Positions 51,063-64,000 of a DNA stretch of 64,000 bases are shown piece by piece (position 1 is the stretch's first letter; each line of letters opens with the position of its first letter). A program made the position numbers and the translations under genes. The stretch is from Christiangramia sp. OXR-203 (GTDB lineage Bacteria; Bacteroidota; Bacteroidia; Flavobacteriales; Flavobacteriaceae): NCBI RefSeq assembly GCF_034372165.1, contig NZ_CP139698.1, forward strand, positions 124,001-188,000. The letters run 5' to 3'. The notes under the pieces were generated by a model. It was not told where the DNA came from. It made no database searches and was given only the letters and a program-made list of their open reading frames with translations.

Positions 51063-52073
51063 ATGAAAATTATTGTACCAATGGCAGGTCGTGGTTCACG
51101 ACTTCGTCCACATACTTTGACTGTACCAAAACCTTTAATTCCTATCGCAGGAAAACCAATCGTTCACCGACTGGTAGAAGATATTGCAAAGGTTCTTGAT
51201 GAGAAGATCGACGAGGTTGCATTTATCATTGGAGAAGATTTTGGAGAAAAGGTGGAGGAAGATCTTAAAAAGATTGCCGAAAGTCTGGACGCTAAAGGAA
51301 CGATCTATTACCAGGATAAACCACTTGGAACCGGACACGCGATTATGTGTGCGAAGGAATCTCTTAGCGGTCCTGCGGTGGTTGCATATGCCGATACACT
51401 TTTTAAAGCCGACTTTAACCTGGATAAATCTGCAGATGCAGTAATGTGGGTGAAGAAAGTTGAGAATCCATCAGCTTACGGTGTGGTGAAGCTGAATGAC
51501 AATAACGAGATCACAGATCTTGTCGAAAAACCTGAGGAATTTGTTTCAGATCTTGCGGTTATTGGGATATACTATTTCAAGGATGTAGCAGTTTTAAAAG
51601 ATGAACTTCAGAATGTTCTGGATGCAAAGCTAACCCGAGGTGGGGAGTACCAGATCAACGATGGGATTGAAGCAATGCGTAAAAACGGACTCCGTTTTGT
51701 TCCAGGGAAAGTAGATGAATGGATGGACTGTGGAAACAAAAATGTTACCGTGGAAACCAATGGTAGAATGCTGAATTTCCTTCATCAGGATGGAGAGAAA
51801 TTAATGGCAGACTCAGTTAAGATCAAAGATTCTGAAATTACCGAACCTTGTTATATTGGTGAAAATGTTGAATTGATCAATGCTAAAATTGGACCTAATG
51901 TATCTATTGGGGATGGAACCAAAATTGAAAACAGTACTATCAAGAACAGTCTTATCCAGACCTTTGCTGAAGTAAAAAATGCAAAACTTGATAACGCAAT
52001 GATTGGAAACTTTGCCAGATTTGATGGTGAATTTACCCAGATCAGCATCGGTGATTACTCCGTTTTAGAATAA
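51063..52073 (+). CDS. Sugar-phosphate nucleotidyltransferase with left-handed beta-helix tail
   Basis: This 336-residue protein has an N-terminal nucleotidyltransferase domain (MKIIVPMAGRGSRLRPHTL, PKPLIPIAGKP; about 1-230) with substrate loop EKPEEFVSDLAVIGIYYF. The C-terminal hexapeptide repeats (about 255-330, IGENVELINAKIGPNVSIGDG) form a beta helix. It makes an NDP-sugar (glucose-1-phosphate thymidylyl/uridylyl type; exact sugar unknown). It could supply precursor to the surface glycans in this region. Confidence 0.88.
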   Translation: MKIIVPMAGRGSRLRPHTLTVPKPLIPIAGKPIVHRLVEDIAKVLDEKIDEVAFIIGEDFGEKVEEDLKKIAESLDAKGTIYYQDKPLGTGHAIMCAKESLSGPAVVAYADTLFKADFNLDKSADAVMWVKKVENPSAYGVVKLNDNNEITDLVEKPEEFVSDLAVIGIYYFKDVAVLKDELQNVLDAKLTRGGEYQINDGIEAMRKNGLRFVPGKVDEWMDCGNKNVTVETNGRMLNFLHQDGEKLMADSVKIKDSEITEPCYIGENVELINAKIGPNVSIGDGTKIENSTIKNSLIQTFAEVKNAKLDNAMIGNFARFDGEFTQISIGDYSVLE

Positions 52074-52078
52074 CTTTT

Positions 52079-53443
52079 ATGCGTACATCCGGGAGCCTAC
52101 TTCTTATGTTATGGTTTATACTTTCTGTGCAGGCACAGGATGATAAACGTCCATTTGAAGATGTGAACCAGGATGATCTCGGTCTTGTGAATGATGAGTT
52201 TCAGGAGCTGTTCTTTGAAGCCCTCAAACAAAAAGGCATCGAGAATTATGAAAAAGCGATCATAGCACTGCGTAAAGCTTCAGAAATTTCTGAAGACAAC
52301 GCGGTGCTTTATTTTGAACTTGGGAAGAATTATCGGGAACTTCAGCAATTTCCGGCAGCTATTGAAAATTTTCAGAAGGCTACAGCATTAGAACCCAAAC
52401 GGGAAGCTATACTTGTTTCACTTTTCGAGACTTATGCCGCTACTCGTGATTTTGATAGTGCAATTTCCACAGTGCAAAAGCTTATTAGTTTTGATTCTGA
52501 TTATAAAGAGGACCTGGCTAATTTGTATTTGCTCAATGAAGATTACGACAATGCATTACAACTTATCGATCAACTGGATCAGGACTTAGGTGCAAATTCC
52601 TATCGAAACTCGTTACGCCGGCAGATCTATGCGAGGACCAATAATACCGATGCTCAAATTCAGAATTTAAGGCAAAGTATTGCCGCTAACCCTGAGCTGG
52701 AAAAAAATTATCTCAACCTAATTTACATGTATAGTGAGCAGGGTGAGGATGAAGAAGCGTATAATGTTGCCAATGAACTTTTGGAAAGTAATCCCGGTTC
52801 TTCTCTGGCTCATCTTGCACTCTATAAATTTCAGCTCGAAAAACAGGAGCCTGAAGCTGCTATTGCTTCCATGGAAATTGTATTTGAAAGTGAAGAAATC
52901 GATGCTGAGTCTAAATTCAAAGTGCTCAATGACTTCCTGATTTTTGTACAGGATAATCCTCAATATGAAAACCGTCTGGTAGAAGTTGCTCAAAAACTCA
53001 CTCAAATCGAGAATACACCGGGTTTGTATGAAAAACTGGGACAATTCTATCTAAAAAAAGCTGATCGGAAAAATGCACTTCGGTATTTTGAACTGGGAAT
53101 AAAGAAGAATTCTACCAATTTTGAACTTACCAGGAATACACTGTTGTTACAAATTGATCTTCAGAAATATGAAGACGTTAGAGAATTGAGCGCACAGGCG
53201 TTGGAAAATTTTCCTTCTCAACCTGTTTTATACCTATTTCAAGGGGTTGCTCTTAACAAACTTGAAAAGTTTGAGCAGGCTGAAAGCAGCTTGAAGGATG
53301 GGCTGGATTACCTGGTCGATGATATTAGAATGGAAGCCGATTTCTATGCACAGCTTTCTTTTAGCTATCATGGTATGAATAATGCAGGATTGGCGAATGA
53401 ATATCGCGCTAAAGCGGAGGAATTACTTAAAGAAATAAATTGA
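52079..53443 (+). CDS. TPR-repeat protein, exported
   Basis: This 454-residue protein begins with a signal peptide (MRTSGSLLLMLWFILSVQAQ), then multiple TPR-like helix pairs (about 40-440; for example ALRKASEISEDNAVLYFELGK and NYRELQQFPAAIENFQKA). It is probably a periplasmic scaffold. The ATGA stop/start overlap couples it to the DUF4292 lipoprotein gene, which in turn overlaps the EnvC-like gene, so the three may work on one envelope process (inference). Confidence 0.85.
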   Translation: MRTSGSLLLMLWFILSVQAQDDKRPFEDVNQDDLGLVNDEFQELFFEALKQKGIENYEKAIIALRKASEISEDNAVLYFELGKNYRELQQFPAAIENFQKATALEPKREAILVSLFETYAATRDFDSAISTVQKLISFDSDYKEDLANLYLLNEDYDNALQLIDQLDQDLGANSYRNSLRRQIYARTNNTDAQIQNLRQSIAANPELEKNYLNLIYMYSEQGEDEEAYNVANELLESNPGSSLAHLALYKFQLEKQEPEAAIASMEIVFESEEIDAESKFKVLNDFLIFVQDNPQYENRLVEVAQKLTQIENTPGLYEKLGQFYLKKADRKNALRYFELGIKKNSTNFELTRNTLLLQIDLQKYEDVRELSAQALENFPSQPVLYLFQGVALNKLEKFEQAESSLKDGLDYLVDDIRMEADFYAQLSFSYHGMNNAGLANEYRAKAEELLKEIN

Positions 53444-54216
53444 TGATTAGAAGAATAGTAACACTGGTATTTATGGCGGTAATTATAGCTTCCTGCGGAA
53501 GTTCCCGTCGTGCCGGAAAAATCGTTACAAAGAACACAGAAGCTGTTTCCATTATTAAAAAGCACTATGCTGAAGAAGCCGATTATAAGACCGCTTCCGG
53601 GAAATTAAGAGCAGTGTACCAGGACGATGAAAAAACACAATCTGTAAACCTTAGTTTTAGAATGGAAAAGGACAAGGCGATCTGGATGAGTGCGAGTATT
53701 CTCGGTTTTCCTGTTGCTAAAGTTTATATCACACCAAATAGTGTGAGCTATTATGAAAAGGTGACTCAGAGTTATTTTGATGGTGACTTCAGGTTAGTTA
53801 GTGATTTCCTTGGGACTCCGCTGGATTTTCAAAAACTTCAGAATCTGCTGATCGGGCAGGCGATCTATGATCTTCGTACTGAAGAATATGATTTCACACA
53901 ATCTCCAAGAGGGTTTCAGTTCGTTCAGGAAGAAGAATCTGCTGATATGAAAAAAATGTTCCTGCTGGATAGTCGTACTTTGAAAGCAGCGGCTCAGCAA
54001 CTGGCACAGGTTTCAGAAAACAGAAGTCTTACGGTTACCTATTCAGATTACCAGGTGGTAGATGGTATTGTCTTTCCTGAGGAGATTCGTATTATCGCCA
54101 ATGAAGGAGGAAGCAGCACCAATATTGAAATTACCTACAGAAGCATCAATTTCAATGAGGAAGTTAGTTTTCCTTTCGATATCCCCTCTGGTTACGAAGA
54201 AATAAGCTTGAAATGA
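53440..54216 (+). CDS. DUF4292 lipoprotein (LolB/LolA-like fold proposed)
   Basis: This 258-residue lipoprotein has lipobox VIIASC (Cys at about 19). The mature domain reads TASGKLRAVYQDDEKTQSVNLSFRMEKDKAIWMSAS, GFPVAKVYITPNSVSYYEK and ITYRSINFNEEVSFPFDIP. This strand pattern recalls the LolA/LolB lipoprotein-carrier fold. I recall DUF4292 being placed near that clan but could not check. It overlaps both neighbours by 4 nt (ATGA). Confidence 0.75.
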   Translation: MMIRRIVTLVFMAVIIASCGSSRRAGKIVTKNTEAVSIIKKHYAEEADYKTASGKLRAVYQDDEKTQSVNLSFRMEKDKAIWMSASILGFPVAKVYITPNSVSYYEKVTQSYFDGDFRLVSDFLGTPLDFQKLQNLLIGQAIYDLRTEEYDFTQSPRGFQFVQEEESADMKKMFLLDSRTLKAAAQQLAQVSENRSLTVTYSDYQVVDGIVFPEEIRIIANEGGSSTNIEITYRSINFNEEVSFPFDIPSGYEEISLK

Positions 54217-55436
54217 TTAGAATGAAGGCTTCAAATGTATTGATTATTCTACTGCTTTGCTTAGGTGGTATGCAGTTTAGCTATGCCCAAACAGATCGTG
54301 AAGAACTGGAAAAAAGGCGTATTCAGCTTAGAAATGAGATCACCAGGATCAATGAGCTTAGAATTTCCAACCAGAAGAAGCAACGCTCGGTGCTTGTACA
54401 GGTGGAAGATCTTGGACAACAAATAAAAAGCACCGAAGATCTTATAAAACTAACCAACCAGCAGGCGAATTTGCTCACAAGGGAAATTACGACCAATACG
54501 AATAAAATTGGTGCGCTTAGAAAGGAACTGGAACAGCTTAAGGAAGATTATGCCCGAATGATCGAGAAAAGCTACAAGAGCAAGTCTCAGCAAAGCAGGG
54601 TGATGTTCTTGCTGTCTTCTCAGAACTTCCTGCAGGCATATAAACGAATTCAGTATATGAAGCAGTATACCAATTATCGTAAACAGCAAGGAGAAGAGAT
54701 CAAGGCTAATACGATAGAATTGCAACAATTGAATTCCAGGTTGGTTCAGCAAAAAGAAGAAAAGCAGAAACTAATTGCTGAAAATAGAAAAACCAGGGCT
54801 CAGTTAGAACAAAATAGAAAATCTCAGCAAGAACTTGTTTCCACGATCAAAAAACGTGAAGGTGAATTTGCGAGTCAGTTAAAAAGCAAACAGAGAGAGA
54901 TCGACGAAATCGACAGGGCGATCGATCGAATGATTCGCGAATCCATTGCCAATGCAAATAAAGAGAGCGGTTCAAGCTCAAGAAGTACTTATGAACTTAC
55001 TCCGGAAGCGAAAGCACTGGCGACTGATTTCAATAATAACAAGGGAAAATTGCCTTGGCCGGTGAAATCTGGTGTGGTGACGATGAAGTTTGGAAAACAG
55101 CCACATCCTGTAGTAAGTTCGGTAATGGTTAATAACAATGGAGTACGAATTGATACTGATAAAGGTGGAAAGGCGCGTGCTGTTTTTAATGGAACTGTTA
55201 GCGAAGTGCAGGCGGTGAAAGGTGCGAATAAAGCGGTGATGGTTAGACACGGTGATTTTATTACGATCTATAACAACCTTGAGAACGTTTTTGTGAAAAA
55301 AGGGGACACGGTAAGGACAGAGCAGGAGATAGGAGAGATCGCAACCAGTAGAACTACCGGGAAAACGACTCTGCATTTTCTATTGTATAAGAACGATCAA
55401 AAAATGGATCCGGCAGGATGGATCTATAGAATGTAA
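54213..55436 (+). CDS. EnvC-like murein hydrolase activator with degenerate M23 domain
   Basis: This 407-residue exported protein has a signal peptide (to about residue 26, SYAQ), a long coiled coil (about 28-240) and a C-terminal M23/LytM fold (about 275-405). The zinc site looks dead. The first His position reads VNNNGVRIDT (Asn for His) and the HxH motif reads TTLHFLL (Thr for the first His). Such LytM proteins activate amidases (EnvC, NlpD) rather than cut peptidoglycan. Compare the intact site of the M23 peptidase at 23425. Position after the DUF4292 gene is coupled. Confidence 0.85.
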   Translation: MIRMKASNVLIILLLCLGGMQFSYAQTDREELEKRRIQLRNEITRINELRISNQKKQRSVLVQVEDLGQQIKSTEDLIKLTNQQANLLTREITTNTNKIGALRKELEQLKEDYARMIEKSYKSKSQQSRVMFLLSSQNFLQAYKRIQYMKQYTNYRKQQGEEIKANTIELQQLNSRLVQQKEEKQKLIAENRKTRAQLEQNRKSQQELVSTIKKREGEFASQLKSKQREIDEIDRAIDRMIRESIANANKESGSSSRSTYELTPEAKALATDFNNNKGKLPWPVKSGVVTMKFGKQPHPVVSSVMVNNNGVRIDTDKGGKARAVFNGTVSEVQAVKGANKAVMVRHGDFITIYNNLENVFVKKGDTVRTEQEIGEIATSRTTGKTTLHFLLYKNDQKMDPAGWIYRM

Positions 55437-55488
55437 TTTCAACGCAACCTTATGGGTTTGAAAGCATCTAGTGAATAGAATCTAACCT

Positions 55489-56190
55489 ATGAGTTCAGAA
55501 AAATTTGGTTACACGCGTGCGTTTATAGTGTTTATGCTACTGTTACTACAGGGATGTACACCTGTTTCTATAGAAAATAATAAACGAATTCTGGTACAGG
55601 GAAAATTTGTAACTCCTGAAGGCAATGCTTTACAGGGAATCCGGGTAAGTACAAAAACAGATATCAATGGTTTTTTAAGCCGGGGACAGGGCACACTTTC
55701 TGAAGTTGTAAGTGATGAAAACGGTGATATTTCTATGGTCTCTCTGGATGTTGATCCTGAAATTTTGTGCCTGGATATTAAAAATACTTCTAATGATCGA
55801 AGGTTGCAGAGTTTTACAGTTTGTGATTCTTCATTCAGCAGGAAGGAAACATTGTTGGATCTTGGTGAATTTGAGCTGAAAGAAATCATAGAAACGAGCA
55901 TAATCATTCGGCATAATTCAGATGTTTATTATACGTTGAGGTCTGAAGCATCTTCAGTACGAATTGGTATTGAAGATTGGAATGAATTAAGCTCTTACGA
56001 TGATTTAGACCTGGCTTCGAAATATACAACCCGGGAATCCTTTCTGAGTTCTGAAAATCAGATTGATACTTTAAGAGTCACCACCACTAATAATTCTACT
56101 GTTTATTTAAAATTACAAAGCGCTCAGGAAGAATATATTTATGAATTTGAGGTGAACGAAATCGATGAAAGCTATGAGATCGATCTTTAG
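55489..56190 (+). CDS. Lipoprotein with carboxypeptidase-regulatory-like domain, unknown function
   Basis: This 233-residue lipoprotein (LLLLQGC, Cys at about 23) has a mature N-terminal part (ILVQGKFVTPEGNALQGIRV) resembling the CarboxypepD-regulatory-like/beta-sandwich domains common in Bacteroidota surface lipoproteins. The C-terminal half (about 130-233) is beta-rich and acidic. No enzyme motif is seen. The last 26 bp overlap the next gene, which begins in another frame. Confidence 0.65.
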   Translation: MSSEKFGYTRAFIVFMLLLLQGCTPVSIENNKRILVQGKFVTPEGNALQGIRVSTKTDINGFLSRGQGTLSEVVSDENGDISMVSLDVDPEILCLDIKNTSNDRRLQSFTVCDSSFSRKETLLDLGEFELKEIIETSIIIRHNSDVYYTLRSEASSVRIGIEDWNELSSYDDLDLASKYTTRESFLSSENQIDTLRVTTTNNSTVYLKLQSAQEEYIYEFEVNEIDESYEIDL

Positions 56191-56794
56191 GCTCATAATA
56201 GTGCTGGTTGTTTGTTCAACTGTTTCTTTGAAAGCACAGGAGCAGGACAGCACAAAATTTTCTCCACATCATTTCAATCGTATACAGTTGGATCCGGAAC
56301 TTAGCATGTTTACAGCAATAGGAGATAACTTTTTAAAGGATGCTTATGATCTCAAAACCGGAACCGGCCTTACTGCCGACTTTTATCTCCATAAGAACTG
56401 GTACATAGGAACTCGATTTTTGAATATAAATACGCAGATAGTCAAGCCTGAAAATATTGGTGACATCAAGAACACAAAAATCTTTACATTCGGTGTTCAG
56501 GGTGCTTATGTTTATGAATTTACCGAGCGTCTATATCTGGATCTAATTGCTGGATTTGGTTCTACCGGCTATTATCATGATTCAAAATTTGGAACGAACT
56601 TTAGAGATTCGGCCACCAGTATTTGGGGGGGGCCAAAAATCAGTTATCGCATCAATAATTTCTTCGGAATATTCCTGGGAAGTGAATTTAGAAGAGATTT
56701 TATGAATATTAAAGTCACCGAACAGCTGAATGATTATTTTGGTAACGCAAACTTATTGAGTATAAGAGCAGGGGTGCGGTTTATCACGCACTAA
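56165..56794 (+). CDS. Probable outer-membrane beta-barrel protein
   Basis: This 209-residue protein has a signal peptide (SIFRLIIVLVVCSTVSLKAQ). The mature chain alternates hydrophobic and polar residues, with aromatic-rich strand ends (FYLHKNWYIGTRFLNI, FTFGVQGAYVYEF, RLYLDLIAGFGSTGYYHD), typical of a small outer-membrane barrel. ATG 56165 or ATG 56174 (MRSIFRL) may be the true start. It overlaps the preceding lipoprotein gene and is convergent with the thioesterase gene, sharing a CTAA stop overlap. Confidence 0.7.
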   Translation: MKAMRSIFRLIIVLVVCSTVSLKAQEQDSTKFSPHHFNRIQLDPELSMFTAIGDNFLKDAYDLKTGTGLTADFYLHKNWYIGTRFLNINTQIVKPENIGDIKNTKIFTFGVQGAYVYEFTERLYLDLIAGFGSTGYYHDSKFGTNFRDSATSIWGGPKISYRINNFFGIFLGSEFRRDFMNIKVTEQLNDYFGNANLLSIRAGVRFITH

Positions 56795-57306
56795 TCTTTG
56801 TCAAAAAGAGCCTTAAGTTCAGTAGCATCACTAGGTTTCATTTTACCAGCAAGCACAAGACTTAATTGCTTTCTGCGCAAGGCAGCGGCAAATCTTTCTT
56901 TTTCAAGATCAGTTTCCGGCTCTAGCTGTGGGATTTGAATTGGAGTTCCGGTTTCGTCTACCGCTACAAAAGTATAAATTGCTTCATTTGCTTTTGTTCT
57001 ACGACCACTTTCACGGTCTTCCACCCAAACATCAATGAAGATCTCCATGGAACTCTTAAAAGCTCTTGAAACAGCTGCCTCAACGGTTACAACACTTCCT
57101 AAAGGAATCGCTTTATTAAAAGCTACGTGATTGACTGAAGCAGTTACTACGATCCTACGACTATGACGTCTTGCGGCGATACTGGCTGCACGATCCATTC
57201 TTGCCAGTAGTTCACCACCAAAAAGATTGTTCAGCGGATTCGTTTCACTGGGTAAAACAAGATCTGTAAGTGTAGTACGAGATTCATTAGGTGATTTAGC
57301 CTCCAT
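56791..57306 (-). CDS. Acyl-CoA thioesterase (hotdog fold)
   Basis: This 171-residue hotdog-fold thioesterase has NPLNNLFGGELLARMDRAASIAARRHS (catalytic Asn/Asp helix region, about 23-48), ASVNHVAFNKAIPLGSVVTVEA and VDVWVEDRESGRRTKANEAIYTFVAVDE, typical of the BACH/YciA-type acyl-CoA hydrolases. It should release CoA from acyl-CoA in the cytoplasm. Its stop overlaps the convergent barrel gene. A -7 element lies 14 nt upstream. Confidence 0.9.
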   Translation of the reverse strand: MEAKSPNESRTTLTDLVLPSETNPLNNLFGGELLARMDRAASIAARRHSRRIVVTASVNHVAFNKAIPLGSVVTVEAAVSRAFKSSMEIFIDVWVEDRESGRRTKANEAIYTFVAVDETGTPIQIPQLEPETDLEKERFAAALRRKQLSLVLAGKMKPSDATELKALFDKD

Positions 57307-57319
57307 GTAAGATTTTTTG

Positions 57320-57327
57320 CAAAAATA
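57320..57327 (-). promoter_or_regulatory. -7 element for the thioesterase gene (TATTTTTG)
   Basis: TATTTTTG on the minus strand lies 14 nt before the thioesterase ATG. Confidence 0.45.
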
Positions 57328-57367
57328 GGGAGGTTAGCGGTAATTTCGCAGTTAACGAACTATTAAA

Positions 57368-58297
57368 TTACAGTTCCTGAACCAATAACCAGGCTGCATC
57401 ATTCGTTTTCTTAACCGCATAAAGTTTATTGATCGCCTCTCTTCTGGTTTGATGACTGGAATAAACTACCTGGTGAAGGCCATATTTATTAGATCCTAGT
57501 AATCGGGCTTTGAAACCTTCTGCTCTAAGTTCATCAACTTTGGTTTGTGCGTTTTCTTCAACTCGAAATGCTCCTGCAACAACATGATAGTTCCCAGATT
57601 GTTTTTCTACTTCGAAAGTAACCGCTGGTAGTGGGTTGTCTATTACAAAGGTTGCCTGTTGTATTTGTTCCTGAAGCTGAGTTTCTGCCTCCTGCTGTTC
57701 AGCAATATTATGTTTTGTAACCTGGCTGCTGTAAATGTTAAGTCCGGCAAAACTTGAAACTCCAAGGGCTATTAGGCCAATCGCGGCATATTTCCAAATG
57801 GATGATCGCTTGCTTTCAGGAGTGAAAGTAATAGGGGCTTTTTCCTCAAGTTCTGATACCTGTTGTTTGTAAGCCTCTCTATTAACCGGCAAGGCTTTGT
57901 AAGTATCCAGACCAAAGGACTGCGTGAGAAAGTTTACATTCGTAACAGGTTCAAATTGCAGTTTATCCTCACTATCCAGGTAAAGCTCTCCAATATTCTC
58001 GAGCCTGGCTTTAGAAGCATTTTGTAAAGAAGATTCCAGGTCATATACGTACTCCTGGATCATGTTATTTGCAGTCTGATATTTTACATTCTCGACCTCA
58101 GCAATATAATTTGCAAGTAGCCCATCATTTTTGATAAGCTGCCTGTTGAATGAGATCACCTTTTTTGGAGGAAAGAACTCATTGGAATTTTCATCGATAA
58201 AAGCTGATTGCTTCTGGGCCAGGAAGGCACCAAAACCGGGAAGAACTACACATTCATAACGGTAAAGCAGGTCCTGTATGTAATTGGAAATATTCAT
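57368..58297 (-). CDS. HU-like (CCDC81-type) domain plus SPOR domain protein
   Basis: This 309-residue protein starts MNISNYIQDLLYRYECVVLPGFGAF. The N-terminal domain (about 1-120) resembles the HU-CCDC81-like domain of Bacteroidota proteins, followed by a linker, a TM helix (about 168-186, YAAIGLIALGVSSFAGLN), and a C-terminal SPOR domain (about 230-309, NYHVVAGAFRVEENAQTKVDELRAEG) that binds denuded peptidoglycan. The N-terminus would be cytoplasmic and the SPOR domain periplasmic. Start at 58297 is preferred over a TTG three codons upstream. It is divergent from dprA. Confidence 0.85.
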   Translation of the reverse strand: MNISNYIQDLLYRYECVVLPGFGAFLAQKQSAFIDENSNEFFPPKKVISFNRQLIKNDGLLANYIAEVENVKYQTANNMIQEYVYDLESSLQNASKARLENIGELYLDSEDKLQFEPVTNVNFLTQSFGLDTYKALPVNREAYKQQVSELEEKAPITFTPESKRSSIWKYAAIGLIALGVSSFAGLNIYSSQVTKHNIAEQQEAETQLQEQIQQATFVIDNPLPAVTFEVEKQSGNYHVVAGAFRVEENAQTKVDELRAEGFKARLLGSNKYGLHQVVYSSHQTRREAINKLYAVKKTNDAAWLLVQEL

Positions 58298-58303
58298 CGA
58301 GTG

Positions 58304-58311
58304 CAAAAATA
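58304..58311 (-). promoter_or_regulatory. -7 element for the HU/SPOR gene (TATTTTTG)
   Basis: TATTTTTG on the minus strand lies only 6 nt before the ATG, implying a leaderless or nearly leaderless mRNA, or a chance match. Confidence 0.4.
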
Positions 58312-58396
58312 TAGGTTAAAGACAGTTAGTTAAAGTTACCTAAACAAATTTTATTAACAAATGTTTTTTTCTGTAAATTTCGTCAAATTATCCTGA

Positions 58397-59500
58397 ATGG
58401 AACCTGATCAACTTTTGTATACCCTGGCACTGCAACATGTTCCAAATCTGGGAGATAGCACAGCTAAAAAATTAATAAGACATTTTGGTTCTGCGGAAAA
58501 CGTTTTTAAAGAAAAAAAGTCTAGTCTATTGAAAATTGATGGTATTGGGAAGACCAGGATCAGTGAAATTGAGAACCCAATGCATCTGAAGGAAGCTGAA
58601 AAGGAACTTGGTTTTATTCACAAGAATAAGATTAGCGTAAGCTATTTCAAAGAAGATAGCTATCCTGAAAAGCTCAAACATTGCCAGGATTCGCCCCTGC
58701 TGTTATTTAGCCGTGGAACCATAAACCTCAACAGGAAGCGAATTCTCAGTATCGTTGGGACTCGACAGATCAGTTCACATGGAATCTCCTATTGCGAACA
58801 GCTTATAGAAGATCTCGCACCTTTAGAACCGGTTATTATCTCAGGATTTGCATACGGAACCGATATTACGGCTCATAAAGCAGCCATCAGGAATAATCTA
58901 CAAACCGTAGCCTGCCTGGCTCACGGACTGAACCAGATCTATCCAAAAGCTCATAAAAAGTATATGACCGAAATGGAGGAGAACGGAGGGTTTTTTACCG
59001 ATTTCTGGAGTAGCGATACTTTTGATCGTAATAATTTCCTGAAAAGAAACCGGATCATTGCCGGCTTGAGCGAAGCTACTGTAGTAATTGAGAGTGCCGA
59101 AAAAGGAGGAGCATTGGTAACGGCCGATATTGCTAATTCCTATGATAGAGAGGTTTTTGCTGTGCCGGGTAGACCGGGAGACAAGTCAAGTATAGGCTGT
59201 AATGAACTAATTAAAAGTCAGAATGCTAGAGTACTTACTTCCGCAGCAGATATTGCATATATGCTTAACTGGCGGAATAATGAAAATGATCTAAAACCAG
59301 TTCAGAAGAAATTATTTATTGATCTTGGAGCAGAAGAACAACTCTTATATGACCAGTTGCAACTTCAGGGAAAAACTGAATTGGATCTGCTGGCACTTCA
59401 GTGTAAAATACCAACTTTTAAAACGGCGTCATTATTACTGAGTATGGAATTGAAGGGAGCGGTAAGACCACTCCCTGGTAAGTTATTTGAGATCGCGTAG
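58397..59500 (+). CDS. dprA: DNA processing protein DprA
   Basis: This 367-residue protein loads RecA on incoming single-stranded DNA. An N-terminal HhH/SAM-like region (QHVPNLGDSTAKKLIRHFG, about 13-31) is followed by the Rossmann DprA domain with SIVGTRQISSHG (about 117-128), ISGFAYGTDITAH, and RNRIIAGLSEATVVIESAEKGGALVTA, which are diagnostic, and a C-terminal winged-helix-like end. The stop lies 2 nt from the convergent trpS stop. No other competence gene is nearby. Confidence 0.95.
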   Translation: MEPDQLLYTLALQHVPNLGDSTAKKLIRHFGSAENVFKEKKSSLLKIDGIGKTRISEIENPMHLKEAEKELGFIHKNKISVSYFKEDSYPEKLKHCQDSPLLLFSRGTINLNRKRILSIVGTRQISSHGISYCEQLIEDLAPLEPVIISGFAYGTDITAHKAAIRNNLQTVACLAHGLNQIYPKAHKKYMTEMEENGGFFTDFWSSDTFDRNNFLKRNRIIAGLSEATVVIESAEKGGALVTADIANSYDREVFAVPGRPGDKSSIGCNELIKSQNARVLTSAADIAYMLNWRNNENDLKPVQKKLFIDLGAEEQLLYDQLQLQGKTELDLLALQCKIPTFKTASLLLSMELKGAVRPLPGKLFEIA

Positions 59501-59502
59501 GC

Positions 59503-60471
59503 TTAGTAACCTAATTTGGTTCTAACTTTAGCCAGTACTTCATTCGCTACATTTTTAGCTTTTTCTGCTCCAATCGATAGTGCTTTGTCAACTTCTTCCA
59601 GATTATTGATATAGTATTCGTACTTCTCACGTGGTTCAGCGAATTTATCCCGAACAAGTTCGAACAATGCCTGTTTGGCGTGACCGTAACCATAGCCACC
59701 TGCTTCGTAGTTCTTCCTCATTTCAACTATTTGCTCTTCAGAAGCCATAATCTTATAAAGGGCAAATACATTACAGGTATCAGGATCTTTTGGTTCTTCC
59801 AGCGGAGTACTGTCTGTAGCAATTCCCATGATCTGCTTTCTTAGCTTCTTATCGGTCTGGAAAATATTGATCGTATTTTCTTTTGATTTGCTCATTTTCG
59901 CACCATCAGTTCCAGGAATGTACATGGTCTCTTCCTGTACATTACCTTCAGGAATTACAAATACATCGCCCATTTTTGCGTGGAAGCGGGAAGCAACATC
60001 CCGGGTCATCTCGATATGCTGCAATTGATCTTTCCCTACCGGAACAATTTCAGCGTCATAAAGAAGAATATCGGCCGCCATAAGCATAGGATAGGTAAAT
60101 AAACCACTATTCACATCTTCAAGACGATCTGCCTTATCCTTAAATGAATGCGCAAGGGTTAGCCTCTGAAACGGAAAGAAACAACTTAGATACCAGGAAA
60201 GTTCAGCAACCTGCGGGATATCAGACTGGCGATAAAAAACACTTCTTTCAATATCTAGTCCACAGGCAAGCCATGTCGCTGCTACAGAATAAGTGTTTTG
60301 ACGTAGGGTCTCGGCATCTTTGATCTGGGTAAGCGAATGCAGATCTGCAATAAAAATAAAGGAATCATTTTTAGGATCATTCGCCATATTAATGGCGGGC
60401 ATGATGGCACCTAGTAAATTCCCCAAATGCGGGGTTCCTGTACTCTGTACTCCTGTAAGTATTCTTGACAT
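59503..60471 (-). CDS. trpS: Tryptophanyl-tRNA synthetase
   Basis: This 322-residue class I synthetase charges tRNA-Trp. It has the HIGH-like TGTPHLGNLLGAI (about 11-23), KMSKS in GAKMSKSKENTI (about 192-203), and the QYIEMTRD-like region DQLQHIEMTRDVA. Length is normal. It is divergent from the PlsC-type gene; promoters for both lie in the 73-bp spacer. Confidence 0.96.
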   Translation of the reverse strand: MSRILTGVQSTGTPHLGNLLGAIMPAINMANDPKNDSFIFIADLHSLTQIKDAETLRQNTYSVAATWLACGLDIERSVFYRQSDIPQVAELSWYLSCFFPFQRLTLAHSFKDKADRLEDVNSGLFTYPMLMAADILLYDAEIVPVGKDQLQHIEMTRDVASRFHAKMGDVFVIPEGNVQEETMYIPGTDGAKMSKSKENTINIFQTDKKLRKQIMGIATDSTPLEEPKDPDTCNVFALYKIMASEEQIVEMRKNYEAGGYGYGHAKQALFELVRDKFAEPREKYEYYINNLEEVDKALSIGAEKAKNVANEVLAKVRTKLGY

Positions 60472-60491
60472 GGACTTTTCGAATTTTCCTG

Positions 60492-60499
60492 CAAAGGTA
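60492..60499 (-). promoter_or_regulatory. -7 element for trpS (TACCTTTG)
   Basis: TACCTTTG on the minus strand lies 21 nt before the trpS ATG. Confidence 0.5.
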
Positions 60500-60532
60500 A
60501 ATTTTTTATAGAACTCCTTCCTTTCATTTTAC

Positions 60533-60540
60533 TACTTTTG
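60533..60540 (+). promoter_or_regulatory. -7 element near the PlsC-type gene (TACTTTTG)
   Basis: TACTTTTG lies only 4 nt before the first possible ATG of the acyltransferase gene. If used, transcription would begin at or after that ATG and favour the ATG at 60560. Confidence 0.45.
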
Positions 60541-60544
60541 ACGC

Positions 60545-61288
60545 ATGCGATACATCAAAATGGCAGGCATCCTTTTATGGAGAATCTGGTTCTATATTCT
60601 CCTGATCGTACCAATTGTGATAATGCTTCCCGTTTTGATCGTTTTCACCACTTCTGAAAAGTTTTACCCTCAGTATTTCGTTTGCTCCCGTATATGGGCA
60701 AAATGTATCCTCTACGGAATGGGTTTCTGGGTTAAAGTTAAAGCTGAAGAAATTCCTGAAAAACATAAAAGCTATATGCTGGTGGCGAATCATACCAGTA
60801 TGCTTGATATTATGCAGATGCTGGTCATTATGAAGCAACCTTTCGTTTTTATAGGAAAAAAGGAACTGAGTAAAATCCCTGTATTCGGATTCTTCTATAA
60901 GCGTACCTGTATCCTGGTGGATCGGAAGAACCAGCAAAGCCGGAAAGCTGCATTTCTGGAAGCACAAAGAAGATTAAAACAAGGAAATTCAATTTGCATA
61001 TTTCCTGAAGGTGGAGTGCCAGATGATCATTCGGTCGTGCTGGATCAATTTAAAGAAGGAGCTTTTAGACTGGCCATTGAACATCAGATTCCAATCGTTC
61101 CCATCACATTTCATGATTCGAAAAGAAGATTTTCATATAGATTCCTTTCGGGCAGCCCCGGGAAGTTAAGAGTCAGGATCCATCATTTTATCCCTACCCT
61201 TGGCCTTGAAATGACCGATAGAAAGGAAATCAAAAACTCGACTTTCAATATTATTCATGATGAGCTGGTAGATCCTTCGGTTTATTAG
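60545..61288 (+). CDS. plsC: 1-acyl-sn-glycerol-3-phosphate acyltransferase (PlsC-type)
   Basis: This 247-residue membrane-bound acyltransferase makes phosphatidic acid from lysophosphatidic acid. It has an N-terminal hydrophobic helix (about 10-32), the catalytic NHTSMLD (HX4D, about 79-85), and the substrate motif IFPEGG (about 156-161). The start is either ATG 60545 or ATG 60560 (MAGILLWRIW); the promoter position suggests the second. Its TTAG stop overlaps the convergent barrel-protein gene by 4 nt. Confidence 0.9.
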   Translation: MRYIKMAGILLWRIWFYILLIVPIVIMLPVLIVFTTSEKFYPQYFVCSRIWAKCILYGMGFWVKVKAEEIPEKHKSYMLVANHTSMLDIMQMLVIMKQPFVFIGKKELSKIPVFGFFYKRTCILVDRKNQQSRKAAFLEAQRRLKQGNSICIFPEGGVPDDHSVVLDQFKEGAFRLAIEHQIPIVPITFHDSKRRFSYRFLSGSPGKLRVRIHHFIPTLGLEMTDRKEIKNSTFNIIHDELVDPSVY

Positions 61289-62847
61289 AAAGTATAGCTA
61301 ATCCCTGAGTAAACCCCGAAATTAACTGGACGTACATTATCAACATTATTAAAAGTGTTGACCTGGTATTTCATCATAGGTTCTACGCTAAGGCTTATTT
61401 TGTTGCTAATTTCATAATCCACCCCAATCCCAACATTCGTACTAAAACTTGTTTTATTGATATTGGAAGCTGTTCCAAGTTTGGTCCTGGACTCAGCCGT
61501 TACAAGATCCACACTGTTCTGGTCAAGGAAAAGTCCACTTGCACCACCAATGAGATTTAGTCCAAAGCGTTCGTCAACCAAAGCGTATTCCACTTCCAGC
61601 GGAACTTCGATAAACCCAAATTGCTGATTGATCTCTCCAGGAGTGAATACAGTTGGAGAAATAATACTTCCGTTGCTGTTATCACTATTTCCGCCAAAAC
61701 TAGGTAGACCACTATCATTAGGAGACTCAACCCTAATTTCGATGTTGTCTTCCGTAGAATTTATATTTTCAAAGCCTGGATTCATTGCCGTTGGGCTATA
61801 AGATACATTGGCAATGTTCTGACTCATATTCACTTTGCTGATTCCAGTTCTAATCTTGATATTTTTCGCGATATCATAAGCCAGCTTAACACCGTATGAA
61901 AAGGTAACTTCAGCATTCGTGGAATTGTTTGAAAACTGGTTTGAAAGTTCATTTCCATCCCCAAGATTAGCATAGAAAACGGGTGCGGCAAATGTTGACA
62001 GACGAAGATTTTTCTGGTTGAGGTTTTCATCCTCCTCGTTTTCTTTATTTTCTTCGGAAGTTTTTGCAGCTAATAACTCTTCGAGTTGGTTTAAGGAAGT
62101 ATCCTGTAAAATAGCAGTACTTAGCAGTTCATCAGAAAGTTCAGGATTTCTTTCATTCCAGTAGTTTTCGAATATACTTTCTACGGTATTTCTCTTTGCA
62201 TCTTCATCGGTCAAAGTTATTGCTTCGTTGGTGAGAGATGTAGTTGCTGAGGTACGATATTTATTATTTAAATTATTTTCTTCTGAATTGTTATTACCAT
62301 TTTCGTGATGAGTATAACGGGAATCTTCTTTTGATCTTTGATTGGTCTGGGATTCATTTCTTCCCGAATCATCTAGATATTCTTGATCTTCAGCTGTGGT
62401 ATTGCTGTTTTTATCAGCAATTGCTGCATTAGAACTGCTTGTTTCTTCAGAGTTGTTATTAGTTTTTTGTCCGTTATGGTAAGCGGCACCAGATTGTTCT
62501 TTTTGATTGTTCTTATCCTCATTCACTATTCTTTCTTCTGAAGGAGATTCCTGATCAATACTTTCATTGTTTTCTGCTCCCGTTTCAATCGATTCGTTCA
62601 CAAATCCAGGTTCTGAAACTTCCGTAGTGGAAAGATTCATTTTCCAGATTCCCGTGGCTACTAAGGCTAAAATTGCAGCTGCAGCACTAAATTTAAGCCA
62701 GAGTGGAATTACCGGCTTTTTAGCAACCGGTGGTGTTCCGGCATCCAGCCGTGCCGATATTTTCTCCCAGTTTCTAGGAGATGGTTCTTTCTCGAAGTCC
62801 TTGAACTTCTCCTGAAAGATCCTGTCTATGTTCTTTTTCTCTTTCAT
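61285..62847 (-). CDS. Probable dual-membrane anti-sigma factor: cytoplasmic anti-sigma N-terminus, TM helix, outer-membrane beta barrel
   Basis: This 520-residue protein has no signal peptide. Residues about 1-48 are charged and cytoplasmic-like, with FKDFEKEPSPRNWEKISARL, the P..W..I...L pattern of Bacteroidota anti-sigma N-termini. One TM helix spans about 49-70. A long low-complexity linker rich in Asn, Glu, Ser and Gln (about 75-275) follows. The last 240 residues are beta-strand rich, with aromatic ends and a final Phe (SGISYTF), as in BAM-assembled barrels. The gene overlaps the ECF sigma gene by 4 nt (ATGA). Together these suggest a membrane-spanning signal relay; similar dual-membrane anti-sigma factors have, as I recall, been described in Bacteroides. 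Confidence 0.75.
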   Translation of the reverse strand: MKEKKNIDRIFQEKFKDFEKEPSPRNWEKISARLDAGTPPVAKKPVIPLWLKFSAAAAILALVATGIWKMNLSTTEVSEPGFVNESIETGAENNESIDQESPSEERIVNEDKNNQKEQSGAAYHNGQKTNNNSEETSSSNAAIADKNSNTTAEDQEYLDDSGRNESQTNQRSKEDSRYTHHENGNNNSEENNLNNKYRTSATTSLTNEAITLTDEDAKRNTVESIFENYWNERNPELSDELLSTAILQDTSLNQLEELLAAKTSEENKENEEDENLNQKNLRLSTFAAPVFYANLGDGNELSNQFSNNSTNAEVTFSYGVKLAYDIAKNIKIRTGISKVNMSQNIANVSYSPTAMNPGFENINSTEDNIEIRVESPNDSGLPSFGGNSDNSNGSIISPTVFTPGEINQQFGFIEVPLEVEYALVDERFGLNLIGGASGLFLDQNSVDLVTAESRTKLGTASNINKTSFSTNVGIGVDYEISNKISLSVEPMMKYQVNTFNNVDNVRPVNFGVYSGISYTF

Positions 62848-63386
62848 GATGATTTCACCGCTTTTGAGTTCTGTACCAATTCAATTTTCTCCTTTAAAGA
62901 AGTTCTGGCTCTGGCCAGGTTTGATTTCGAAGTTCCCTCAGTGATACTTAATAAATCTGAAATTTCTTTATGAGAATAGCCGTCCAGCACATACAGGTTA
63001 AATACCTGTCTATATCTGTCTGGTAATTCCTGTACACATTGTAAGAGGAAGTCCACGGAAATATTTTCTGTTTCAATTTCTATTTCATCTTCCTGCAGAT
63101 CTTCTTCGTTGGTAATGCCGTAAACTTTTTGTTGTCTGTGTTGTTGCAGTGATGTGTTGATAAGAATACGTTTCATCCAACCCTCAAAAGATCCTTTATC
63201 CTGAAACTGACCAATCTTTTCGAAAATGGTCACAAACCCGTCCTGCAAATTATCTTCCGCCTGTTGATAGTTATCAGAATATTTCAGGCATACCCCAAAC
63301 AACTTGGGGGAATAGAGCCTGTAAAGCTCTTCCTGAGCTTTTCTTTCGTTTTGCTTACAACGGTAGATGAGGTCTTTAGAACCCAC
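62844..63386 (-). CDS. ECF-type RNA polymerase sigma factor
   Basis: This 180-residue sigma-70 family factor has region 2 (about 18-85: LYSPKLFGVCLKYSDNYQQA, DNLQDGFVTIFEKI) and region 4 (about 112-165: LPDRYRQVFNLYVLDGYSHKEISDLLSITEGTSKSNLARAR, a helix-turn-helix for the -35 region). No region 3 or extra domain is present, so it is an ECF group member. The start is a GTG at 63386, because the nearby ATG is out of frame. The gene overlaps the putative anti-sigma gene by 4 nt and lies 21 nt after the lipoprotein gene. Confidence 0.92.
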   Translation of the reverse strand: MGSKDLIYRCKQNERKAQEELYRLYSPKLFGVCLKYSDNYQQAEDNLQDGFVTIFEKIGQFQDKGSFEGWMKRILINTSLQQHRQQKVYGITNEEDLQEDEIEIETENISVDFLLQCVQELPDRYRQVFNLYVLDGYSHKEISDLLSITEGTSKSNLARARTSLKEKIELVQNSKAVKSS

Positions 63387-63407
63387 GTATTCATTTTAGG
63401 TTAGTAG

Positions 63408-63842
63408 TTATGACTGCTCCATTACAACAGGAATGGTAACTTCTTCATATATCGCTTCATCTCCATCCTGTCCCTTCCAGAATCTAAAAGTGTAATCTCT
63501 TTCTTCATCAATGGTCACCACAAACTTTGTACTTGAAGATGTTCCAATAACATCTCTGGTACAGGAACTATTTTCGACAACAGCGGTAACAACCGAAATG
63601 TAAATCTGGCTTCTTTCTTCTGAAGTAGTGCCTGCTCTTCGAGCGTCCACTGCCTGAAAGTTATTACAATCTGATGGAAAGACGAAATCTACTCTTACAT
63701 CGTAAGTATTACCTAATACGAATTCATCTGGTAGATCGTGACTTGTAATACTTGCTAATTCGTAGGAGGTGATTTGGGAATCATTGTCTACTGAACAATT
63801 TATTAGCAGTAATGTTAGGGCTATTACAACCAATTTTCTCAT
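63408..63842 (-). CDS. Small lipoprotein upstream of the ECF sigma gene
   Basis: This 144-residue lipoprotein has lipobox LLLINC (Cys at about 16). The mature chain has strands such as YDVRVDFVFPSDCNNFQA and YTFRFWKGQDGDEAIYEE and three further Cys, suggesting one or more disulphides. No family is recognised. The start at 63842 places the signal peptide at the N-terminus; longer in-frame starts add residues without a signal. It is on the same strand and 21 nt upstream of the sigma gene, with no terminator between them, so it is likely the first gene of the operon. Confidence 0.75.
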   Translation of the reverse strand: MRKLVVIALTLLLINCSVDNDSQITSYELASITSHDLPDEFVLGNTYDVRVDFVFPSDCNNFQAVDARRAGTTSEERSQIYISVVTAVVENSSCTRDVIGTSSSTKFVVTIDEERDYTFRFWKGQDGDEAIYEEVTIPVVMEQS

Positions 63843-63898
63843 ATTCTTATTGCTTTTATAGTAGATGCAATAATTGAGAAATGGTTGCGTAGGTATCA

Positions 63899-63925
63899 AA
63901 AAAAATCCCCGGATGGGGATTTTTA
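63899..63925 (-). terminator. Intrinsic terminator of the recA-like gene
   Basis: AAAAATCCCC and GGGGATTTTT form a 10-bp stem with a 4-nt loop, 2 nt after the partial gene's stop on the minus strand and followed by T residues. It separates recA from the lipoprotein-sigma operon. Confidence 0.8.
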
Positions 63926-63926
63926 A

Positions 63927-64000
63927 TTAAGCTTCTCTAGCGACCTTGATCGCATCTTTAATTTTGACTTCCAGTTCTTCCATAAGATCTGGATTGTCTT
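63927..64000 (-). CDS. recA: RecA recombinase, C-terminal end only (partial)
   Basis: Only the last 23 codons are in the window, encoding DNPDLMEELEVKIKDAI and a short Ala/Glu tail before TAA. The NPxLxxELExKIxxA pattern matches the C-terminus of bacterial RecA. The gene extends past the right edge, so identity rests on this tail alone. Confidence 0.65.
   Translation of the reverse strand, partial: DNPDLMEELEVKIKDAIKVAREA

Follow-up and report, generated by a model that had tools for sequence, protein, structure and literature searches.

In the RseA/sigma-E system of Escherichia coli, a single-helix anti-sigma factor reports the state of the envelope, envelope genes are under the control of the sigma factor, and regulated cleavage of RseA releases it. 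In the FecR-TonB receptor relay, outer-membrane state is passed through several proteins and a signalling domain to an extracytoplasmic function (ECF) sigma factor. A further arrangement has been described in Bacteroides thetaiotaomicron, where, according to PMC13088901, the protein Dma starts with an anti-sigma domain, continues with a helix and a disordered tether and ends in a barrel; it is encoded adjacent to an ECF21 sigma factor (Das), and its deletion frees Das and raises vesiculation. A 64,000-nucleotide (nt) stretch of Christiangramia sp. OXR-203 (Flavobacteriaceae; contig NZ_CP139698.1, positions 124,001 to 188,000; hereafter the window), from a genome of 3.395 Mb in one contig, encodes a 520-residue Dma-type protein directly behind an ECF sigma gene. 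The locus probably represents a flavobacterial Dma/Das branch, a circuit from the outer membrane to a sigma factor that controls surface-type lipoproteins. The new and testable part is the promoter with its lipoprotein regulon, and the lipoprotein encoded in the operon is also new; among the open-access matches listed, a coverage that leaves out subscription journals, neither a flavobacterial Dma nor a CGCAACC-CATCT promoter was the subject of a paper.

The operon, read directly from the window, lies on the minus strand in the order lipoprotein (63408..63842; 144 aa, ATG at 63842), ECF sigma factor of the Das type (62844..63386; 180 aa, GTG start) and Dma-type protein (61285..62847), with recA upstream as judged by eye. 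The sigma factor is recognized by Pfam (Sigma70_r2, E 5e-14; Sigma70_r4_2, E 2.8e-17), and its stop codon (TGA) shares the tetranucleotide ATGA with the start (ATG) of the 520-residue open reading frame (ORF), an overlap that an earlier reading made from the sequence alone (the sequence-only reading) had placed at the correct coordinates and on the correct strand. An exact copy of the promoter motif described below, CGCAACCATTTCTCAATTATTGCATCTA (63862..63889, minus strand), stands ahead of the first gene and would make the operon autoregulated.

The architecture of the Dma-type protein was computed with AlphaFold2 from 47 aligned orthologues, which gave a mean predicted local distance difference test score (pLDDT) of 64.3 and a predicted template-modelling score of 0.48. 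The domain limits are residues 1-48 for the N-terminus, which is predicted to be cytoplasmic, 49-70 for the membrane helix, 71-280 for the tether and 281-520 for the barrel. Two N-terminal helices (4-16 and 24-35) precede the membrane helix, which has a pLDDT of 52-67 and coincides with the single hydropathy segment (46-64) within the first 407 residues. A cleaved signal peptide is disfavoured, since lysines precede the helix and the N-terminus appears to be soluble and 48 residues long. The tether, 210 aa in length and rich in Asn, Glu and Ser, has a pLDDT below 50 over 72-213, followed by low-confidence helices at 214-269, so that about 55 linker residues ahead of the barrel may be helical. 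Eight strands form the barrel (281-294, 315-327, 330-352, 402-424, 428-449, 466-479, 484-496 and 507-519), with pLDDT above 90 in 281-350 and 401-520 and lower values in the loop 351-400, and the chain ends in Phe. The best Foldseek matches are OmpA barrels (E 4.6e-9 and 5.7e-8; template-modelling score (TM-score) by target 0.70 and 0.73), the Pfam model OMP_b-brl scores 28.0 bits, slightly below its cut-off of 28.7, and an anti-sigma model of NCBIfam matches the N-terminus weakly (E 0.013). The structure prediction that the sequence-only reading had proposed thus returned the expected single membrane helix and eight-stranded barrel, and the disordered linker of about 200 residues and the terminal Phe that it had described are borne out as well. 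Its view of the protein as distinct from the FecR relay also stands: no FecR domain was found, OMP_b-brl being the only Pfam match to the protein at E <= 1, and visual inspection of the ORFs at 57.4-64 kb and of locus L013, which includes recA, showed no TonB-receptor-like gene. Identification as a FecR-type anti-sigma factor was rejected, and so was identification as a plain porin.

Comparison with Bacteroides places the protein within the published family. DUF4943 was searched in 295 genomes of the class, of which seven matched, six of them over the cut-off; six loci were taken and two were read (L117 and L118). In both, a sigma gene is followed by an overlapping gene whose product has a Dma-like N-terminus and then by DUF4943, and in L117 Pfam identifies DUF4858 and a nitronate monooxygenase (NMO) thereafter. 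Because the gene order das2-dma2-DUF4943-DUF4858-NMO equals the published order BT_1559 to BT_1555, these loci can be tied to Dma2, and their hosts are presumably Bacteroides or close to it. Profile alignment relates the N-terminus and helix to the Dma2-type protein (E 8.4e-6, probability 83.5%) and the barrel to the Dma2-type barrel (E 2e-4, probability 46.5%), while N-terminus and barrel appear unrelated to each other (E 0.2); the sigma factor is 35.9% identical to the Das2-type sigma factor. The Christiangramia pair resembles Dma2/Das2 (BT_1558/BT_1559) in domain order, adjacent ECF sigma gene and homology of N-terminus and barrel, and at two Dma2-type loci also in promoter layout. It differs in that the Dma2-type protein has 356 aa and is followed by DUF4943 and DUF4858, whereas the protein here has 520 aa, a lipoprotein gene upstream and predicted lipoprotein targets. 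In L117 and L118, GCAGCA-N15-CGTCTA, a candidate Das2 promoter, lies upstream of das2 with the spacing of the CATCT motif described below. Dma1/Das1 of B. thetaiotaomicron, likened here by description, belongs to the same family and exerts its vesicle effect via nigD1, as reported in PMC13088901. The predicted target set of the present locus is broader. NigD1 itself we take to be a lipoprotein. Dual-membrane anti-sigma factors connected with vesicle formation in Bacteroides, which the sequence-only reading had mentioned, correspond to this published family (PMC13088901). RseA shares with the Dma-type protein a single-helix anti-sigma factor that reports envelope state to a sigma factor acting on envelope genes but, unlike it, has neither a barrel nor an outer-membrane tether; the FecR-TonB relay links outer-membrane state to an ECF sigma factor, as proposed here, through several proteins rather than one chain. 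At the level of architecture, the reading of the protein as a dual-membrane anti-sigma factor is supported by the structural model, by the neighbouring sigma gene and by agreement with the Dma family as published.

The Dma-type system appears, from sequence comparison, to be family-wide in Flavobacteriaceae and not a lone oddity. A relative occurs in 166 of 199 genomes of the family (one genome per genus, E 1e-3), some of which have more than one match, fragments and paralogues being pooled, and in 23 of 24 genomes of the genus; the closest named relative found, in Christiangramia portivictoriae, is 82% identical over the 520 residues. Others were seen in Flavobacterium fluvii, F. silvaticum and F. 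terrisoli (L186, L190 and L196). Reading of 132 loci (120 unique proteins), drawn from the best matches and hence biased to good orthologues, revealed the sigma gene directly upstream in 132/132, with the 4-nt overlap in 54, and a lipoprotein gene leading the operon in 126/132; the pairing of sigma and Dma genes is therefore not a matter of chance. A class-wide draw of 395 genomes contained 211 with a match at E 1e-3, many of them via the N-terminus alone. Leaving out the locus of the window, a sigma match adjoins each of the best 29 loci, 19 of which belong to other families; three of the partners have only 263-373 aa and may lack a barrel. Among the 120 unique orthologues, mean pairwise identity is 56% in the N-terminus, 46% in the barrel and 16% in the tether, whose length ranges from 132 to 276 aa (median 196); its length and chemistry are kept and its sequence is not. 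Residues 82-85, just outside the inner membrane, are conserved as a hydrophobic-acidic stretch, mostly V/I-V-D/N-E/T. In the middle of the tether of these 120 orthologues, [IV]A dipeptides number 314 against 119 +/- 10 in shuffled sequences, an excess inflated by shared ancestry, yet at low tether identity; their spacing peaks at 30-40 residues, and the window protein itself has one.

The sigma factor is one of 13 region-2 sigma matches in its genome, and it is the only one with a barrel partner, as judged by eye in 1.5-kb flanks. A paralogous ECF sigma factor (locus L016, G000:C1:637688-640882; 38% identical) has a partner of 256 aa with one helix, no barrel and an N-terminus weakly similar to that of the Dma-type protein (E 0.13).

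The lipoprotein that leads the operon carries the lipobox LLIN-C16 followed by acidic residues (CSVDND), and its AlphaFold2 model (pLDDT 90.8) is a seven-strand sandwich, immunoglobulin-like by eye; Cys59 and Cys94 are conserved in an alignment of 37 members. Pfam gave it no identity, the 37 members yielding only single chance-like matches apart from the generic lipoprotein attachment-site model, which recurs in 12 of them, and the fold search against the PDB found none at E <= 0.001; its top match had an E of 0.014, and TM-scores by query reached about 0.45 at most. The names NigD and DUF4943 were not adopted, since neither Pfam nor fold searches gave an identity. The protein is a natural candidate for a ligand or feedback element of the system.

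Ahead of the operon lies a conserved predicted promoter of the ECF type, ACGCAACCnTT-N12-CATCTA, for which the column table gives ACGCAACCnTT-N11-G-CATCT-A, and whose shape is in keeping with ECF promoters. Of the 120 unique loci, 107 have the lipoprotein and enough upstream DNA; GCAACC occurs within 150 nt upstream in 105 of them, and CATCT is first met exactly 15 nt past it in 97 of those 105. The Christiangramia genome has five exact sites, one with one mismatch and five with two, and the six best sites, together with two of the two-mismatch sites (L209 and L210), are located 18-43 nt before a lipoprotein start. The remaining two-mismatch sites, which lie inside a gene (L211), before a non-lipoprotein gene (L212) and at an oxidase-like gene start (L213), were not counted as targets, and three-mismatch sites were treated as noise, with 74 sites at up to three mismatches against 80 for the reversed control. 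No Rfam family reached its gathering score in window positions 52000-64000. The promoter co-occurs with the Dma-type protein in direct counts: the exact site is present in 135/166 family genomes with Dma versus 0/33 without (Fisher 3.5e-20), the reversed pattern in 2 of the 199, and in genomes below 2.5 Mb the site occurs in 11/16 with Dma versus 0/27 without.

Lipoprotein genes are the predominant predicted targets of this promoter within the genus. A scan of 24 genomes allowing up to one mismatch yielded 116 sites, all of which were read, against seven for the reversed pattern, and the first ORF encodes a lipoprotein behind 105 sites by the first lipobox rule and behind 112 by a looser one; 110 of the 112 start 4-43 nt past the site, the others at 165 nt (L261) and 235 nt (L249). 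Sites at orthologous genes depend on one another, which makes counting by cluster safer: grouping of the 114 first ORFs gave 21 clusters, lipoproteins making up 19, and without the operon's own cluster of 26 the figures are 86/90 sites and 18/20 clusters. At least two D/E occur at +2 to +6 past the cysteine in 91/112 lipoproteins, so that their N-termini look mostly acidic, like surface-export signals; such lipoprotein export signals, with motifs from Flavobacterium and Bacteroides, have been assayed in Capnocytophaga (PMC5080379). Recurrent members include an LVIVD-repeat protein and lipocalin-like proteins, one above and one below the Pfam cut-off. Within the window, a second predicted promoter site with one mismatch (55443..55470, plus strand) stands 18 nt before the start codon of a predicted regulon member, a 233-aa lipoprotein (LLQG-C; 55489..56190, plus strand), whose orthologues in other species bear the site as well (cluster 4, eight members). 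The overlapping gene at 56165..56794 (plus strand), predicted to be co-transcribed with it, encodes a 209-aa exported protein, barrel-like by eye, with no Pfam match. In one genome (G200:C27), two near-identical tandem lipoprotein genes 1.8 kb apart (L267 and L268) each have their own copy of the promoter.

These observations are consistent with the following circuit. The barrel (281-520) would reside in the outer membrane, the disordered tether of about 200 residues would cross the periplasm and cell wall, the single helix would cross the inner membrane, and the N-terminal helices would bind the ECF sigma factor and keep it inactive. A change at the outer membrane, such as barrel assembly, a ligand, crowding or vesicle budding, would alter the tether or expose it to a protease; the signal would be relayed along the tether by mechanical means or through cleavage, and the freed sigma factor would transcribe its own operon and a small regulon, in the genus near-wholly of lipoproteins and including the operon's own first-gene lipoprotein, from ACGCAACCnTT-N12-CATCTA. 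Such a surface-lipoprotein circuit would fit two reports: lipoprotein surface exposure and vesicle packing are coupled in Bacteroides (PMC6222051), and of 16 surface lipoproteins in Flavobacterium johnsoniae 13 rose upon TamL depletion (PMC12045153). The predicted architecture and the lipoprotein targets suggest a system that tunes the cell coat to conditions at the outer membrane. With a sharply delimited promoter and a defined set of targets in a family-wide relative, Dma sensing and vesicle action become directly testable.

Several points weigh against this interpretation. The N-terminal and membrane helices are modelled at a pLDDT of only about 50-70, and the effects reported for deletion of dma2 in B. 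thetaiotaomicron fall mainly on the region of its own operon and on polysaccharide loci rather than on a lipoprotein regulon as such. The lipobox rule was loosened after missed sites had been seen, and at sites a later in-frame start was accepted if a lipobox resulted. The background, 7/319 flank ORFs and 9/59 window ORFs (two of these nine standing behind the promoter), was counted once, under the looser rule and allowing a start anywhere among the initial 60 codons; it covered ORFs of at least 100 aa, whereas site ORFs were allowed down to 60 aa. Comparison of the acidic residues is confined to the nine rule-positive window ORFs, two of which have at least two D/E, and the predicted member at 55489..56190 lacks the acidic +2 to +6 pattern. 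The exact site is missing from 31/166 genomes with Dma, and small genome size and common descent are partial confounders of its absence from all 33 without. The target set is also less pure outside the genus: among 60 sites from 32 genomes, hand-picked from the listed part of the matches with the aim of skipping Dma-adjacent sites, the lipoprotein rule holds for 37, including two (L415 and L416) that represent the operon's own lipoprotein, and by eye the others comprise five imperfect lipoboxes (orthologues of passing ones), ten micro-ORFs, four signal-peptide proteins and four with nothing convincing. A second set gave 15 lipoproteins at 39 sites, with own-operon and recA-side sites mixed in, 11/30 loci matching the operon lipoprotein and part of the rows resolved. 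Finally, a related sequence, GCAACC-N16-CGTCTA, stands upstream of the L016 sigma gene, so that cross-recognition of the promoter is possible, and the Das2-type sigma factor is 33.3% identical to the L016 sigma factor, nearly as close as to that of the Dma-type operon.

The alternative that survives best, with a chance somewhat short of even, is a proteolytic relay, in which the chain would be intact only briefly, regulated cleavage of the tether would free the sigma factor, as cleavage of RseA does, and the barrel would serve as a folding sensor instead of a mechanical link. The conserved residues 82-85 just outside the inner membrane would suit such cleavage and the repeated [IV]A dipeptides could be recognition sites, but conservation of the whole chain in the 120 unique orthologues is equally expected for a permanent link. 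A further elaboration, tentative and on balance unlikely, is that surface lipoproteins, through their loading or export, are what the Dma barrel senses. The sandwich lipoprotein of the operon would serve it as ligand or plug, and the sigma factor would reset a dedicated lipoprotein regulon that in other genera would also include micro-proteins and a small recA-side transcript; if this were true, surface lipoprotein export would be linked to vesicle output via one protein chain.

It is distinctly improbable that the promoter is read by another ECF sigma factor, for example of the L016 type, or by both, the lipoprotein regulon then not being this sigma factor's own. The sequence upstream of L016 shares the -35 element, and PMC9723704 reports for Flavobacterium psychrophilum an ECF motif with a CGT box, SM6, at genes for type IX secretion, at YceA and at an operon of an ECF sigma factor and its anti-sigma factor; an L016-type sigma factor is possibly behind those promoters. 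SM6, compared here by description, represents ECF promoters in the same bacterial family, YceA and an ECF/anti-sigma operon included, but its -10 box is CGT and its targets include several type IX secretion genes, where the present motif has CAT and lipoprotein genes. Against a foreign sigma factor, the CATCT site with 15-nt spacing fronts the operon itself in 97/107 loci and is found in none of the 33 genomes without Dma, while the CGTC-type pattern has just two exact sites in the Christiangramia genome, one of them at the L016 operon. A purely structural tether between the membranes that lies beside a sigma gene by chance, to which the OmpA-like barrel and the weakness of the NCBIfam anti-sigma match might point, is highly implausible given sigma adjacency in 132/132 family loci and 29/29 loci of the class search and an N-terminus homologous to that of the Dma2-type protein.

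Further observations concern the promoter outside the genus. In ten genera, a hydrophobic micro-ORF of 28-35 residues lies directly behind it (L375, L383, L395, L400, L402, L407, L409, L411, L418 and L429); the product ends in FSVNKKTEP or nearly so in eight cases and contains FSCND in two, and two of the ten keep a lipobox-like cysteine. A second copy of the promoter is present beyond recA, reading away from it, in 39 of 80 named loci among L123-L202 (for example L137, L140, L144, L145, L152, L157, L185, L201 and L202), and it was not among the best motif sites of the Christiangramia genome. No Rfam family reached its gathering score in eight loci with this recA-side transcript. An ORF of 28-37 residues ending in [DE]GG, often after a cysteine, occurs in 13 of the 39 copies; as it is confined to these, some without the cysteine, the element is not claimed as a micro-lipoprotein. 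The recA-side stretch spans about 200-250 nt, and many copies contain, by eye, an inverted repeat and a terminator-like hairpin. On the other side of the operon and outside it, a convergent gene for a plsC-like acyltransferase identified by Pfam (60545..61288, plus strand) is a conserved neighbour, found in 121/132 loci.

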